From assembly GCA_938028665.1 (NCBI GenBank), contig CALIMB010000012.1, positions 1 to 52,561 on the forward strand: 52,561 nt of DNA, in the 5' to 3' direction. The stretch's first letter is position 1. Each line of letters begins with the position of its first letter. Shown piece by piece: positions 14,858 to 22,417 of this stretch. The notes beneath the pieces are model-generated. The model was not told the origin of the DNA. It did no database searches and saw only the letters and a program-made list of their open reading frames with translations. Source of the stretch: an uncultured Thermomicrobium sp. (GTDB taxonomy: Bacteria > Chloroflexota > Chloroflexia > Thermomicrobiales > Thermomicrobiaceae). The position numbers and the translations under genes were made by a program.

Positions 14858-14944
14858 GCCATACAGCGACACACCGATCGTGTCAGCACAGCAACGGTGG
14901 GGCGTCAGATACCCAACTCCCGCACTTCAGTCGATGCAGACTGC

Positions 14945-15995
14945 CGTTTCATGCGTCCCTGCGCGCGGCTGGTACGGGGAGAACGAATCGCTCGCGAAGG
15001 GGGCTTCCGTCACCGCCCATGCCCACGCACCGCAGATGACGTGAATTCACAGCGTCCGCCTTTCCCGCGAAACCTCTCCGGGTCACGCAAGGAGATGAAG
15101 AGCGGATGACTCCGCTACAGGCGCACCACTCGTCCGCATATGACCGACCAGAGAAGAAAGCCTGCTGGGTACACTTTGCCGGTGTGCGCAATGAACAGTA
15201 TCCCACCCCCGTCCCGAACACCATGGCCACGTCGGGCCGAGCGTGGTGGCGACGACGCACCCAGCCGCGCCCATCGCTGGACAACCACTTGCCGGTAACA
15301 GGGGGCCTCGGTTGTCTTTAGAGGACCCGGAAACTGCTCGGCCTCCACAAGCCAGGCAAGCACGGCCTCGGCTTCGTCCGGTGCCAGCGACGGCAGCAGA
15401 CGCGCGCGTTCCACCGGTACGAGGAACAAGAGACTCCAACGCTCGACACCGGGGTCTCTAACGAATTCCACTATGGCGAGCAGATCATCCCTAGTTTCCA
15501 CACAAACCAGCGTGTTCACCCGGAGAGGCAGGCCAAGTTCTCGTGCTGTGCGGGTAGCGGGGAGTGTCCAGGCGAACCTGCCCTTCACAACCCGCAGAGA
15601 ATCGTGTCGCTCCGCTGTTGATCCATGGAAGCGTCATGCCAATCGCGATTCCTGCCTCACGGAGGCGCCTGACCACGTCAGGCGTCAGCGCATCTGTCCC
15701 GCTCGGCGGGATCGAGACAGGGAAAACCCTGCTCACGAGCCGCAGCAATCAGCTGGGTGAGATCGGGACGAGCGAGCCAATCGCCAGCCGTTAGCGTCAG
15801 ATGCAGCAACGGCTGGCCAAAACCTCGCATGGTATTGCGGAGCTGCAAATCTTTGGTGGTTGAGGGCTCACCCAGGTGTCTTAAGGGAACAGCTTCCGCT
15901 CGGCAGTGACGACATACCAAGCGGCGCACCCGTATCAGTTCCCCGTCGACCAAGAGTGACCGTTTAGGGAACTACCAACCCCGCTCCAGTCGCAA
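14945..15995 (-). pseudogene. Decayed radical SAM/SPASM protein (heme-pathway AhbD/TIGR04053-like)
   Basis: Three overlapping frames together recover most of a ~355-aa radical SAM/SPASM protein. The first frame (about 15678-15990) gives LLVDGELIRVRRLVCRHC, where the first Cys of CxxxCxxC has become Arg, and LTAGDW in place of the usual LTGGDP, then meets a stop. A second frame continues with VSIPPSGTDALTPDVVRRL, and a third (from about 15620) carries the middle to GGGILFIAHTGKVYPAGF. The SPASM region is worn further: LRDPERF and RCEF are readable in yet another frame near 15055-15090, and only one or two of its cysteines survive. At least three frameshifts plus loss of a cluster Cys make it nonfunctional. 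It directly follows ctaA-ctaB, so it was probably the last gene of that run. Confidence 0.85.
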
Positions 15996-16008
15996 CGCCC
16001 CTCATTAC

Positions 16009-17928: not shown

Positions 17929-19659
17929 TCACCCGATCTTCCACGGGACACGGCTCAACTCGAACCAGGAGAAACCGTAGAGGAAGATGAAGAGCATCAA
18001 GAAAACGACCGAAATCACCAGCGTTCCAGGCACCTCAAAGGAGCGATGGGCAGCCACTGCTACCGATTCTCCACTTCCGCTGGCATTGGCTGGATATGGG
18101 CTGAACGCCTCGGGAACAATTCGGCCCACTGCTGGCCGCGCTGTGCGCTGCCCCAGAAAGACGGTCGCCACTGCGATCGCGACAAACATCGCCCCGCCGA
18201 CGACCGCAATGATGCCACCGACGCCCATCATCGCCAGAAAGACAGCGATCTCCGGTCGGAGTTCCTGCAAGTTCATACCGAGCACCGGTGCCGTGGCGAA
18301 GGTAATATCCCAGTGCCGCCGCGGGACACCCCAATGCCCGGCCAATCCCATCCCGATGCCAAAGATCAGCATGCCCAGGCCATAGACGTAAGGCTGCCAC
18401 TGCGCCAGCCGCCGGAACAAGAGCTGGCGTTGGAAGATGAGTGGAACAAGATAGTAGGCAATCCCCATGAACGCCAACGTTGTCCCCGCAACGACCGTCA
18501 TGTGGAAGTGCGCTGGAACAAGCAGGGTGTTGTGCGAAATCATGTTCACCTGTGGTCCACCAATAATCACTCCGCTGATCCCACCCAAGAGCCCAAAGAG
18601 AACCATGCTCACAACAAGCGCTGCAAATCCCGGCTCACCCCATGGCGCTCGACGTAGCCACTCGAACAGACCACGGCGATACCCTCGTTCACGCAGTGCA
18701 AGCTCCATCGAGGCTGGGATGCTAAAGGCATGGATGAGACTACCCATCACCGCCGCATACATGAAGTAACTTGCGTTGACATTCTTGACCCAGGTTCCTA
18801 AACCCGGATCAACGAGCAAGTGGTGCATCGCTCCCATGTTGATGAAGAGGACATACAGCACAATCGCGATGCGGCTCAACCCCTCATTCAACGGTCGTGC
18901 ACCGGTCGTAAGGCTCGCCAGTCCGTACCACACGCCAACCATTGCAGCAAGATTCACCTGCTGTGCACCATGACCAAGCCCCCAATACAACAACCGGTAG
19001 ATTCCTGGATCGACTTCCGGGATGACGCCAAGCGTCCACAGGAATACCGGGAACAAGGCAAGTGCACCGGAGAGCAACGACCAGAGCGCAATGACCGCCG
19101 CACCCATCAAGGCGAACGTAAAGAGCGGTAGGCTCCCGACATCACCGCGCAAGCGCGCGGCAACGATATTGATAAAGAAGTGCACGACCGCGAGAATAGC
19201 TCCCACCGCGAAAACGAGCACTGCTGCGTAATACCACGGCGTCTCGGCTCGCAGTGGCGGGTACGAGGTGAACATCACTGTCGCCTTGCCACCCAGCATC
19301 AACACCGTGGCAATGACCGAGCCCCCAAGCATCATCGCGTAGGCAATCCAGCTGAGCCATGGAATGACCATTCGTGTGCTGAGGAGAACGGTACTCGCAA
19401 AGATCAATCCTGCAACCTCAAAAAAGAGGATCCAGAAGATCAACATCACCATTCCATGAGCCGATACAAACTCGTAGAACCGTTGCGGAGCGAGGAGATG
19501 CACTGCTTGCCATCGCGTCAAGGCGATCAGCAAGGCAAGTACACCCCCGATCGTGAGATAAACGACTGCTGTCACCGCATTCAGCATGATCAACCGCTCA
19601 GCGGCCCGATCAACCGAGAGGCCTGTTATCTCGCACCGTCGCATCGCTGCTGTCGCCAT
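17929..19659 (-). CDS. Heme-copper oxidoreductase subunit I, B-family-like, lacking the active-site Tyr
   Basis: The 576-aa protein has at least twelve predicted membrane helices. All six metal ligands are present: His68 (SAHGM, low-spin heme), His230 (GLGHGAQQ, CuB), His279-His280 (CuB), His384 (high-spin heme) and His386 (low-spin heme). In B-family oxygen reductases such as Thermus ba3 the motif is HPIVY, with the Tyr cross-linked to the His. Here the +4 position is Gln234, which is the site of a conserved Glu in NorB. That points to NO reduction (2 NO to N2O) rather than O2 reduction, as proposed for Tyr-less families such as eNOR. ATG at 19659 follows GAGGTGGGACG. It lies 9 bp after the CuA subunit gene. 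An oxygen reductase with a displaced Tyr is not excluded. Confidence 0.93.
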   Translation of the reverse strand: MATAAMRRCEITGLSVDRAAERLIMLNAVTAVVYLTIGGVLALLIALTRWQAVHLLAPQRFYEFVSAHGMVMLIFWILFFEVAGLIFASTVLLSTRMVIPWLSWIAYAMMLGGSVIATVLMLGGKATVMFTSYPPLRAETPWYYAAVLVFAVGAILAVVHFFINIVAARLRGDVGSLPLFTFALMGAAVIALWSLLSGALALFPVFLWTLGVIPEVDPGIYRLLYWGLGHGAQQVNLAAMVGVWYGLASLTTGARPLNEGLSRIAIVLYVLFINMGAMHHLLVDPGLGTWVKNVNASYFMYAAVMGSLIHAFSIPASMELALRERGYRRGLFEWLRRAPWGEPGFAALVVSMVLFGLLGGISGVIIGGPQVNMISHNTLLVPAHFHMTVVAGTTLAFMGIAYYLVPLIFQRQLLFRRLAQWQPYVYGLGMLIFGIGMGLAGHWGVPRRHWDITFATAPVLGMNLQELRPEIAVFLAMMGVGGIIAVVGGAMFVAIAVATVFLGQRTARPAVGRIVPEAFSPYPANASGSGESVAVAAHRSFEVPGTLVISVVFLMLFIFLYGFSWFELSRVPWKIG

Positions 19660-19668
19660 CGTCCCACC

Positions 19669-20220
19669 TCAATCCGTCACAATGATCCGGCCGATCATCA
19701 GATGATGTCCCAAGCCGCAGTACTCGTTGCAGATCAGTGGGAACTCTCCTGTTTTTTCGGGTGTCAGTTCCAGTACCGTAACGTACCCTGGTAAGACCTG
19801 TACGTTGATGCTATGCGGCGGCATAACCAGGGAGAAGCCATGCTGCACATCACGTGAACTGATGAGAAACCGGTACGACTCGCCACGCTTCAGTTGGAGA
19901 ACCGGCTGCCACGCAAAGGCTCGCGCATCCAAATACACATCACTACCCGGAGGCGGTGCAACCACTGGCACTCCATCACGCTGCCCCACCTGGTAGTGCT
20001 GAATGAACGCCTCCGCCTGCCCCGCAAACGTCACCGGATCAACCCGATAGGAGCGAAGGCGATTTTGTTCTTCGCCAATGAGCGGCCAGACAAACGCAAT
20101 CATCAGGAACATTGCAATGCCCCAGATGACCGTCAACCACACCCAGAGCCGCTCATCACGACCTAATGCCTCCCACCAGACACCGCGCGGCTTAGCCAGC
20201 GTACTGACTCGGCTCGCCAT
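19669..20220 (-). CDS. Heme-copper oxidoreductase subunit II with CuA domain
   Basis: The 183-aa protein has one N-terminal membrane helix (about residues 26-47) and a periplasmic cupredoxin domain. The CuA ligands are complete: His127 (VQHGF), then Cys164, Glu166, Cys168, His172 and Met175 in CNEYCGLGHHLM. It would accept electrons from a soluble donor such as cytochrome c or a cupredoxin and pass them to the low-spin heme of subunit I. Length and single helix match B-family subunit II. The start ATG at 20220 follows GGGGGAGG with good spacing. It is the middle gene of a small-subunit/II/I run with gaps of 24 and 9 bp. The intact CuA shows the enzyme is not of the classical cNOR type, which uses a heme c subunit. 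Confidence 0.94.
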   Translation of the reverse strand: MASRVSTLAKPRGVWWEALGRDERLWVWLTVIWGIAMFLMIAFVWPLIGEEQNRLRSYRVDPVTFAGQAEAFIQHYQVGQRDGVPVVAPPPGSDVYLDARAFAWQPVLQLKRGESYRFLISSRDVQHGFSLVMPPHSINVQVLPGYVTVLELTPEKTGEFPLICNEYCGLGHHLMIGRIIVTD

Positions 20221-20244: not shown

Positions 20245-20403
20245 TCACTGACCAAAGAGCGGGATAAAGCCGAGATCGATTAGGCCCCAGATCAGATAGA
20301 ACAGTGTCGGAATCACGAGCCCCACCATCAAAATCAGGAAAATGTCATCCAAGAGCAGCTGTGGCCACGGAACGCGCTCCGACCGCTCCTCGCGCCCTTC
20401 CAT
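20245..20403 (-). CDS. 52-aa single-helix membrane protein, probable third subunit of the oxidoreductase
   Basis: This short gene encodes a charged N-terminus (MEGREERSERVPW) and one hydrophobic helix (about residues 19-42), ending with GLIDLGFIPLFGQ. It has no recognised family. Its place directly in front of subunit II, and its size, parallel the single-helix subunit IIa of Thermus ba3 oxidase, so a structural role in the same complex is likely by position. An in-frame start 63 nt upstream (20466) overlaps the promoter; the ATG at 20403 is preferred because it follows GGGAGGAGG. It is the first gene after the promoter at 20439-20466. Confidence 0.8.
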   Translation of the reverse strand: MEGREERSERVPWPQLLLDDIFLILMVGLVIPTLFYLIWGLIDLGFIPLFGQ

Positions 20404-21061: not shown

Positions 21062-22417
21062 CTACTCGGTCACAATCACGAGCCCGGTCATCTCTCGGAA
21101 TGCAGGACCACACAGTTCTGTGCAGAGCAGTGGATATTCCCCCGTTCGTTCGGGTCGAATGGTGATGATTCCAACTGTTCCCGGAGCTACCCGAACGACC
21201 AGTCGCCGGTCGCCAAAATCGACAAGGAGGCCGTGCGTCACGTCACTGGCTGAGACATACAGCCGATACTCAACGCCCCGGCGGAGCTGCAGTATCGGAT
21301 ACCAGCCATCGGCTCGCCCAACAAGATAGACTTCCCCAGGTGGCGGAGCGACAACCGGGAGCCCGTTACGCTCCCCTACCCAGTACGCCGCAACGAACGT
21401 GGCGACCTGCTGTTCGAAGCGCTGTGGATCCTCTTGTTGCCAGCGGAGATCAGTTGTACCCCGTGCCAGAACCGGTGCGACAACCCCAAAACCGATAAAG
21501 GCAAGTGGAATCACAAGCAGGGCCACCGTCGCGACGGAAAGAGATATTCGCCAGAGACTCGGAGCTTGCGAAAGGCGGCGCATCGAGCTGGGTCGCACTG
21601 CCCGAAGAAGCACCACGAGAAGCACCGTAGCATAGAGCGCTCCACTACCTACCCACATCATTGCCCCGCCGAGCCGCTGATCGGCAAGCGGGTCGATCCC
21701 CCACAGTGCAGCTGTCTCAGCGTACACACCGTAGAGGGGGCGCGGTGCCAGGGTTACGGTCGCACACACCAGATCGGTCGCCATCCAGGTGGCGAACACA
21801 AGAAGAACAGCAGTCATTGGAGAAAACCGGCGATGCCGTGGGAACGGATCCAGCAGTACCCACCAGAAGAGAAACGCACCGCCGAGCATGCTCAGGTGCT
21901 CGATCTGGTGAAGCCAGGGAACACGAACTGCTTCAGCGTAGAGCGGAGGGTAGTGCCACAGCGCAAAGGGCCCGGTCACGGCGAGGAAGACGGTCACAGG
22001 ATGCGTGAGTACGCCCAACAGCCACACAAGGCCGCGCCGCTTACTGAGCCAACGCAGCACCCCGGCAGGCAAGCCACGGAGGAACGTGCGAACTGGTTGC
22101 CCAAGCGACAGCAAAGGCGCCGCGACCAGCATGAGAAGCATATGCTGCACCATGTGCACACTGAACCGCACCGTATTCCCGTGGTCCGGAGGGCCCATGA
22201 GAGCAACTGCGACCACTTCCAGGCCGGCAAGGAAAGCGATCACCCGCCAGCGTGACGCGAGCGGACGGCCGGCACGCGCTACTCGGCGGCGAGCAGCCCC
22301 ATACGCAACCGCCAAACTCAGAAGAAGAACCGTCACCGGCGGATCAAGGTGCCAGGCACGGACGAGATCGGTCGACGTGACCGTGGCGTGCAAGAGTGGA
22401 AGAAGCGGCGCCGGCAT
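21062..22417 (-). CDS. CtaG-type copper chaperone fused to a CuA-like cupredoxin domain
   Basis: The 451-aa protein has two modules. Residues 1-275 form a multi-helix CtaG_Cox domain (caa3-type assembly factor) with His-rich segments HMVQHMLL (88-95), HYPP and WLHQIEHLSML (169-178). A further helix (about 292-318) leads to a periplasmic cupredoxin domain that aligns with subunit II of the neighbouring operon: GLPVVAPPPGEVYL, DVTHG with His395, and CTELCGPAFREM with Cys432, Glu434, Cys436 and Met443. The second CuA histidine is replaced by Phe440, so a normal binuclear CuA is unlikely. It may hold one copper for delivery, or be a redox-inactive scaffold. The ATG at 22417 follows GGAGGAG. It is separated from the oxidoreductase genes by 660 bp but points the same way. 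Confidence 0.9.
   Translation of the reverse strand: MPAPLLPLLHATVTSTDLVRAWHLDPPVTVLLLSLAVAYGAARRRVARAGRPLASRWRVIAFLAGLEVVAVALMGPPDHGNTVRFSVHMVQHMLLMLVAAPLLSLGQPVRTFLRGLPAGVLRWLSKRRGLVWLLGVLTHPVTVFLAVTGPFALWHYPPLYAEAVRVPWLHQIEHLSMLGGAFLFWWVLLDPFPRHRRFSPMTAVLLVFATWMATDLVCATVTLAPRPLYGVYAETAALWGIDPLADQRLGGAMMWVGSGALYATVLLVVLLRAVRPSSMRRLSQAPSLWRISLSVATVALLVIPLAFIGFGVVAPVLARGTTDLRWQQEDPQRFEQQVATFVAAYWVGERNGLPVVAPPPGEVYLVGRADGWYPILQLRRGVEYRLYVSASDVTHGLLVDFGDRRLVVRVAPGTVGIITIRPERTGEYPLLCTELCGPAFREMTGLVIVTE

Follow-up and report, generated by a model that had tools for sequence, protein, structure and literature searches.

An operon in the window (the whole stretch of DNA that was analysed, 52,561 nucleotides from an uncultured Thermomicrobium sp.) very probably encodes, to judge from its sequence, a nitric oxide reductase of the eNOR type, an enzyme that would take up electrons at CuA and use them to convert 2 NO to N2O. 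The source assembly comprises 2.78 Mb in 110 contigs and is 99.3% complete; the window is its contig C12. What is already known is the ortholog of Thermomicrobium roseum, which is public and annotated as a cbb3 oxidase. What is new is another member of the known, little-studied eNOR family; some of its accessory genes are unusual, above all a fusion of CtaG with a cupredoxin. The features of the operon are collected in table 1.

Table 1. Features of the Gln-type operon (positions are those of the window; aa, amino acids).
Feature	Position	Strand	Evidence or remark
TIGR04053-type (haem-type) radical SAM/SPASM gene, decayed: stops and frameshifts	14925..16004	minus	
CtaA-CtaB fusion (haem A synthase and haem O synthase), 606 aa	16009..17829	minus	CtaA-type His present; downstream of subunit I
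Gln-type (eNOR-type) haem-copper subunit I, 576 aa	17929..19659	minus	Pfam COX1, alignments, trees, AlphaFold, Foldseek
Codon of Gln234 (Tyr237 of T. thermophilus ba3)	18958..18960	minus	derived from the ORF start at 19659
Subunit II, 183 aa, N-terminal transmembrane helix and cupredoxin with complete CuA set (DVQHG...CNEYCGLGHHLM)	19669..20220	minus	Pfam COX2, alignment
Small one-helix subunit, 52 aa (MEGREERSERVPWPQ...PTLFYLIWGLIDLGFIPLFGQ)	20245..20403	minus	unannotated ORF directly upstream of subunit II
Fusion of the copper-insertion factor CtaG with a second cupredoxin that resembles subunit II (CTELCGPAFREM)	21062..22417	minus	last CuA His is Phe

Subunit I and its place among the haem-copper enzymes

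The reading frame of subunit I opens with ATG. Its translation places the six histidines and the glutamine of the initial annotation (His68, His230, His279, His280, His384, His386 and Gln234) exactly where they had been reported, in the contexts WGLGHGAQQVNLAAMVGVWY, GAMHHLLVDP and VPAHFHMTVV. The protein matches Pfam COX1 at E=6e-60, scores far beneath the cut-offs of the NCBIfam models CtaD/QoxB/CyoB, and finds its nearest solved chain by sequence in subunit I of the Thermus thermophilus ba3 oxidase (E ~1e-41). When the two are aligned Gln234 falls opposite the Tyr of GHPIVY; where the B-family oxygen reductases carry a motif of the HPxVY type, the window protein reads HGAQQ. A 31-sequence AlphaFold model (pLDDT 81, pTM 0.85) has B-family oxidases as its top Foldseek matches. 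The Z scores of VIA-align do not separate A- from B-family oxidases, a separation given by sequence and Foldseek. Rfam and tRNA scans of the whole window returned no matches.

The window enzyme shares with T. thermophilus ba3 its fold, the six histidine ligands, a CuA subunit II, the channel positions Tyr248 and Ser309 and, from a gene upstream of that for subunit II, a small subunit with one helix. It differs in Tyr237 to Gln, Val236 to Gln, Trp239 to Asn, Tyr244 to Val and Thr312 to His (ba3 numbering).

Is the glutamine an accident of one genome? It is not: Gln234 is a family-wide feature rather than a lone mutation, far beyond chance. Glutamine occupies this position in 100% of the clade members sampled, from Chloroflexota, Pseudomonadota, Nitrospinota, Rhodothermota and Thermus. 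It is invariant in all 42 sampled relatives, and 12 further proteins share it from the order to which a Rhodothermales MAG belongs; of 80 genomes of that order, 12 carry Gln-type genes. The active-site helix reads H-x-x-Q-Q-x-N in every relative above about 39% identity; in those at about 28–36% the motif is of the HPIVY type. Mapped on ba3, four changes (Val236 to Gln, Tyr237 to Gln, Trp239 to Asn and Thr312 to His) are present in 42/42 Gln-type proteins, and His72, His233, His282, His283, His376, His384, His386, Tyr248 and Ser309 are kept in the same 42/42. Closer to home, the subunit is 96% identical to that of Bacterium HR28, 94% to that of Thermomicrobium sp. CFH 73360 and 89.5% to that of T. 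roseum DSM 5159, which identifies the bacterium as a Thermomicrobium. Purifying selection on the subunit is strong (dN/dS 0.03–0.04 against close orthologs).

The initial annotation had proposed placing subunit I in a tree, and there it falls outside the Tyr-type oxygen reductases and within a Gln-type clade. A first tree gathered 34 Gln-type rows, the query among them, into one clade with support 99/99. The B-family oxidases that have the Tyr, from Chloroflexota, Deinococcus, haloarchaea and other groups, lay outside it. When Rhodothermota were added, all 46 Gln tips again formed one group, with local support of only 0.55; in this second tree the sister of the Gln clade is a long-branched family marked by GGGHxLQF.

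Several side observations concern other members of the COX1 family. Paralogs with the GGGHxLQF motif, which have Phe at the Tyr position, lie within 8 kb of a Gln-type subunit I in loci L085, L095, L104 and L110. The Gln-type subunits I on T. thermophilus plasmids read HFK, not HFH, so that Lys replaces the low-spin haem ligand His386 (L142:12001-13686, L143:12001-13683). The window genome itself holds two more Tyr-less proteins. One, on contig C39 (L178:3697-5181), has Asn at the Tyr position (GHTLVNLN), seems to share an operon with a CuA subunit II, a formate/nitrite-transporter-like protein and CtaG, and is a candidate sNOR/bNOR/nNOR-type enzyme. The other, on contig C11 (L179:529-1995), has Glu there (AHNLMEAMG), apparently Met where a His would ligate the low-spin haem (AHTMT), and adjoins a small CuA-type cupredoxin. 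The first tree placed these two together, on very long branches, a pairing that is probably an artefact.

Assignment to the eNOR family

The eNOR of Rhodothermus marinus has reportedly been characterized biochemically, and it was to this family that the initial annotation tentatively referred the operon, uncertain of the residue at the tyrosine position. That residue is Gln: in the published definition, subunit I of an eNOR has a conserved Gln where oxidases have the Tyr, its gene directly follows one for a cupredoxin subunit II, and a single proton channel is predicted (PMC8756737). Since published work defines eNOR by exactly this Gln, the proposed assignment is supported. The window operon has both the Gln and the upstream CuA cupredoxin and keeps some, though not all, of the K-type channel residues, and its subunit I shares a clade, separate from the Tyr-type oxidases, with the Gln-type proteins of Chloroflexota, Rhodothermota, Pseudomonadota and Thermus. 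It departs from eNOR in two accessory genes, the CtaA-CtaB fusion and a CtaG that carries a second, degenerate cupredoxin.

The other NO-reducing families differ at the same site, which is Asn in sNOR and bNOR/CuANOR, Glu in cNOR/qNOR and Asp in gNOR (Table A4, PMC8756737). Like the window protein, bNOR/CuANOR and sNOR are CuA-type, Tyr-less haem-copper NO reductases; the Gln of the window protein sets it apart from their Asn and likewise from the Glu of cNOR/qNOR. The eNORs count among the biochemically characterized NO reductases and have been called B-family-related (PMC11388526).

The active site and proton path

If the cross-linked tyrosine is gone, might another tyrosine take its place? 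The cbb3 oxidases supply theirs from helix VII, six residues ahead of the His pair. The corresponding residue of the window protein, position 273, reads Ile. Six tyrosines are invariant in the Gln-type family (Y62, Y133, Y221, Y245, Y298 and Y402). One of them, Y245, corresponds to Tyr248 in the K-channel of ba3 and lies three turns lower. The initial annotation had raised the prospect of a tyrosine reaching the site from another helix; by sequence none appears suitably placed to replace Tyr237.

The ligands are His68 and His386 for the low-spin haem, His384 for the active-site haem, and His230, His279 and His280 for CuB. Gln234 stands where oxidases have the cross-linked Tyr, so that the site would offer no phenolic donor of an electron and a proton for cleavage of the O–O bond, as oxidases use, and such cleavage seems unlikely. 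The invariant Gln233, Asn236 and His310 probably line the same region. Electrons would pass from a soluble donor through CuA and the low-spin haem to the haem–CuB site, at which two NO would be coupled to N2O.

Where might the protons come from? The comparison with the K-channel of ba3 finds Tyr248, Ser309 and a Glu near the helix of subunit II kept, with Thr312 changed to His and Tyr244 to Val, two changes that weigh against the eNOR reading. The likely source of protons is the cytoplasm, by way of a modified K-type channel in which Tyr245, Ser307 and His310, the last in place of ba3 Thr312, are kept. Turnover should then be electrogenic. NO reduction by the enzyme, its electrogenicity, its haem type and its physiological role are all things we infer.

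Subunit II, the small subunit and the accessory genes

The CxxxCxxxHxxM motif of subunit II is present in 83/83 sampled subunits II. Upstream of subunit II a small transmembrane ORF, ending near PTxxYxxWG, was scored in 80 of 83 loci; because at least three of the printed rows are false picks, the true figure is somewhat lower. Since B-type oxidases encode their small subunit IIa at the same place (PMC3128077), the 52-residue subunit of the window is probably the counterpart of subunit IIa/CbaD of the ba3 oxidases.

The order of genes in the window (CtaG fusion, small ORF, subunit II, subunit I, CtaA-CtaB) is also that of T. roseum DSM 5159, where the subunit I ortholog, TRD_RS10985, lies on the 918-kb megaplasmid NC_011961.1. 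The T. roseum locus differs in that a DEAD/DEAH helicase and a small hypothetical ORF separate the CtaG fusion from the subunit genes (L141:6868-10918), both absent there in the window, and in having no annotated radical SAM gene. Among the loci compared, the CtaG–cupredoxin fusion occurs only in the genus Thermomicrobium; the relatives in Thermalbibacter and Sphaerobacter have a plain CtaG. One could imagine the fused cupredoxin as a dedicated partner of the eNOR, either an in-membrane scaffold for copper loading or an alternative entry for electrons, with eNOR and NosZ together respiring the NO of other organisms; we think this unlikely.

Across 80 loci the neighbours of Gln-type genes include a SCO-like copper protein (58), cytochrome b (55), CtaB (CyoE; 46) and hemerythrin (36). 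Two further queries were set aside: NosZ matched 52 of the 80 loci, mostly by its cupredoxin end on subunit II, and was not used; NirS matched in 11 of 80 flanks, matches that may be to the cytochrome c domain alone and were not counted.

Nitrite reduction and the link to NO

What connects a Gln-type enzyme with NO in these organisms? Among 41 relatives, a full-score NirK and the Gln-type gene occur together in 13, the Gln-type gene alone in 3, NirK alone in 2 and neither in 23. The association is significant (Fisher p=2.7e-6; by genus, p=0.0008–0.004), the counts ignoring phylogeny. On T. thermophilus plasmids the Gln-type pair adjoins genes of nitrite reduction and of the response to NO, which, by annotation or match, encode a nitrite reductase, a NirK-like multicopper protein, a TIGR04053 radical SAM protein, an Rrf2 regulator and a ScdA_N/DUF542 protein. 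The likeness of the multicopper protein to NirK is weak (E=1e-39, below the TIGR02376 cut-off). In both Defluviimonas and Thermus the neighbours of the Gln-type genes include ScdA_N and hemerythrin. Against the eNOR reading, the genes that flank the operon in the window are not denitrification genes.

The window bacterium has recently lost its NO-producing nitrite reductase. NirK is intact in Bacterium HR28. In genome G001 it is an ORF of 228 residues that lacks residues 144–327. In the window genome it is a stop-ridden remnant at the syntenic site on contig C31 (L183). Immediately before it come a histidine kinase and a response regulator, 91–93% identical to the pair that precedes NirK in HR28. 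Neither an intact NirK nor an intact NirS was found in the window genome, which puts an endogenous source of NO in question and weighs against the eNOR reading. The radical SAM gene next to the operon has a similar history, being intact in Bacterium HR28 (L031:11673-12755) and disrupted in CFH 73360 as in the window. NosZ is intact in the window genome. The simplest story is that nitrite reduction was lost and the reduction of NO and of N2O retained. Because NirK is a pseudogene in this organism, the enzyme probably removes exogenous NO, passing N2O to the retained NosZ.

Alternative readings

Could the enzyme reduce oxygen even though it lacks the cross-linked Tyr, for instance as a high-affinity or microoxic oxidase using some other redox-active residue? 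Its fold and sequence are closest to the ba3/B-family oxidases, and the T. roseum ortholog bears the name of a cbb3-type oxidase. Yet the Tyr site and several residues around it have changed together and invariantly, Ile273 leaves no Tyr at the helix VII position of cbb3, and the distribution of the Gln-type gene tracks NirK. Moreover, the window genome encodes both an A-type (aa3) oxidase and an HPIVY ba3 oxidase, so O2 reduction is already covered. We consider an oxidase of this kind quite improbable. Still harder to credit, and already strongly contradicted, is the notion of a vestigial subunit drifting after the loss of denitrification. Two genes have indeed become pseudogenes, NirK and the radical SAM gene beside the operon, but the low dN/dS, the full set of ligands and the intact subunit II and accessory genes speak against drift.

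A more serious contender concerns the role of the enzyme: that NO reduction is part of a dual or detoxifying activity, which just protects the cell or its other oxidases and plays no part in energy conservation. The decay of NirK and of the haem-type radical SAM gene while subunit I was conserved would suit such a role, as would the ScdA_N and hemerythrin genes near the Thermus and Defluviimonas homologues. On the other hand, the modified K-channel and the input through CuA suggest an electrogenic, respiratory design, and NosZ has been retained. A purely protective role seems to us a real possibility, somewhat short of an even chance.

Implications

Because the genes of eNORs mostly go by the name of cytochrome oxidases in annotations, the turnover of NO and N2O by Chloroflexota and Thermomicrobia in hot springs is under-counted. 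The ortholog can be put to the test in T. roseum, which is in culture. The genus, moreover, amounts to a natural experiment, in which NirK is intact, internally deleted or, as in the window genome, shattered, and the Gln-type enzyme is kept in each case. These three states of NirK allow one to ask what eNOR is retained for, respiration or the removal of NO.
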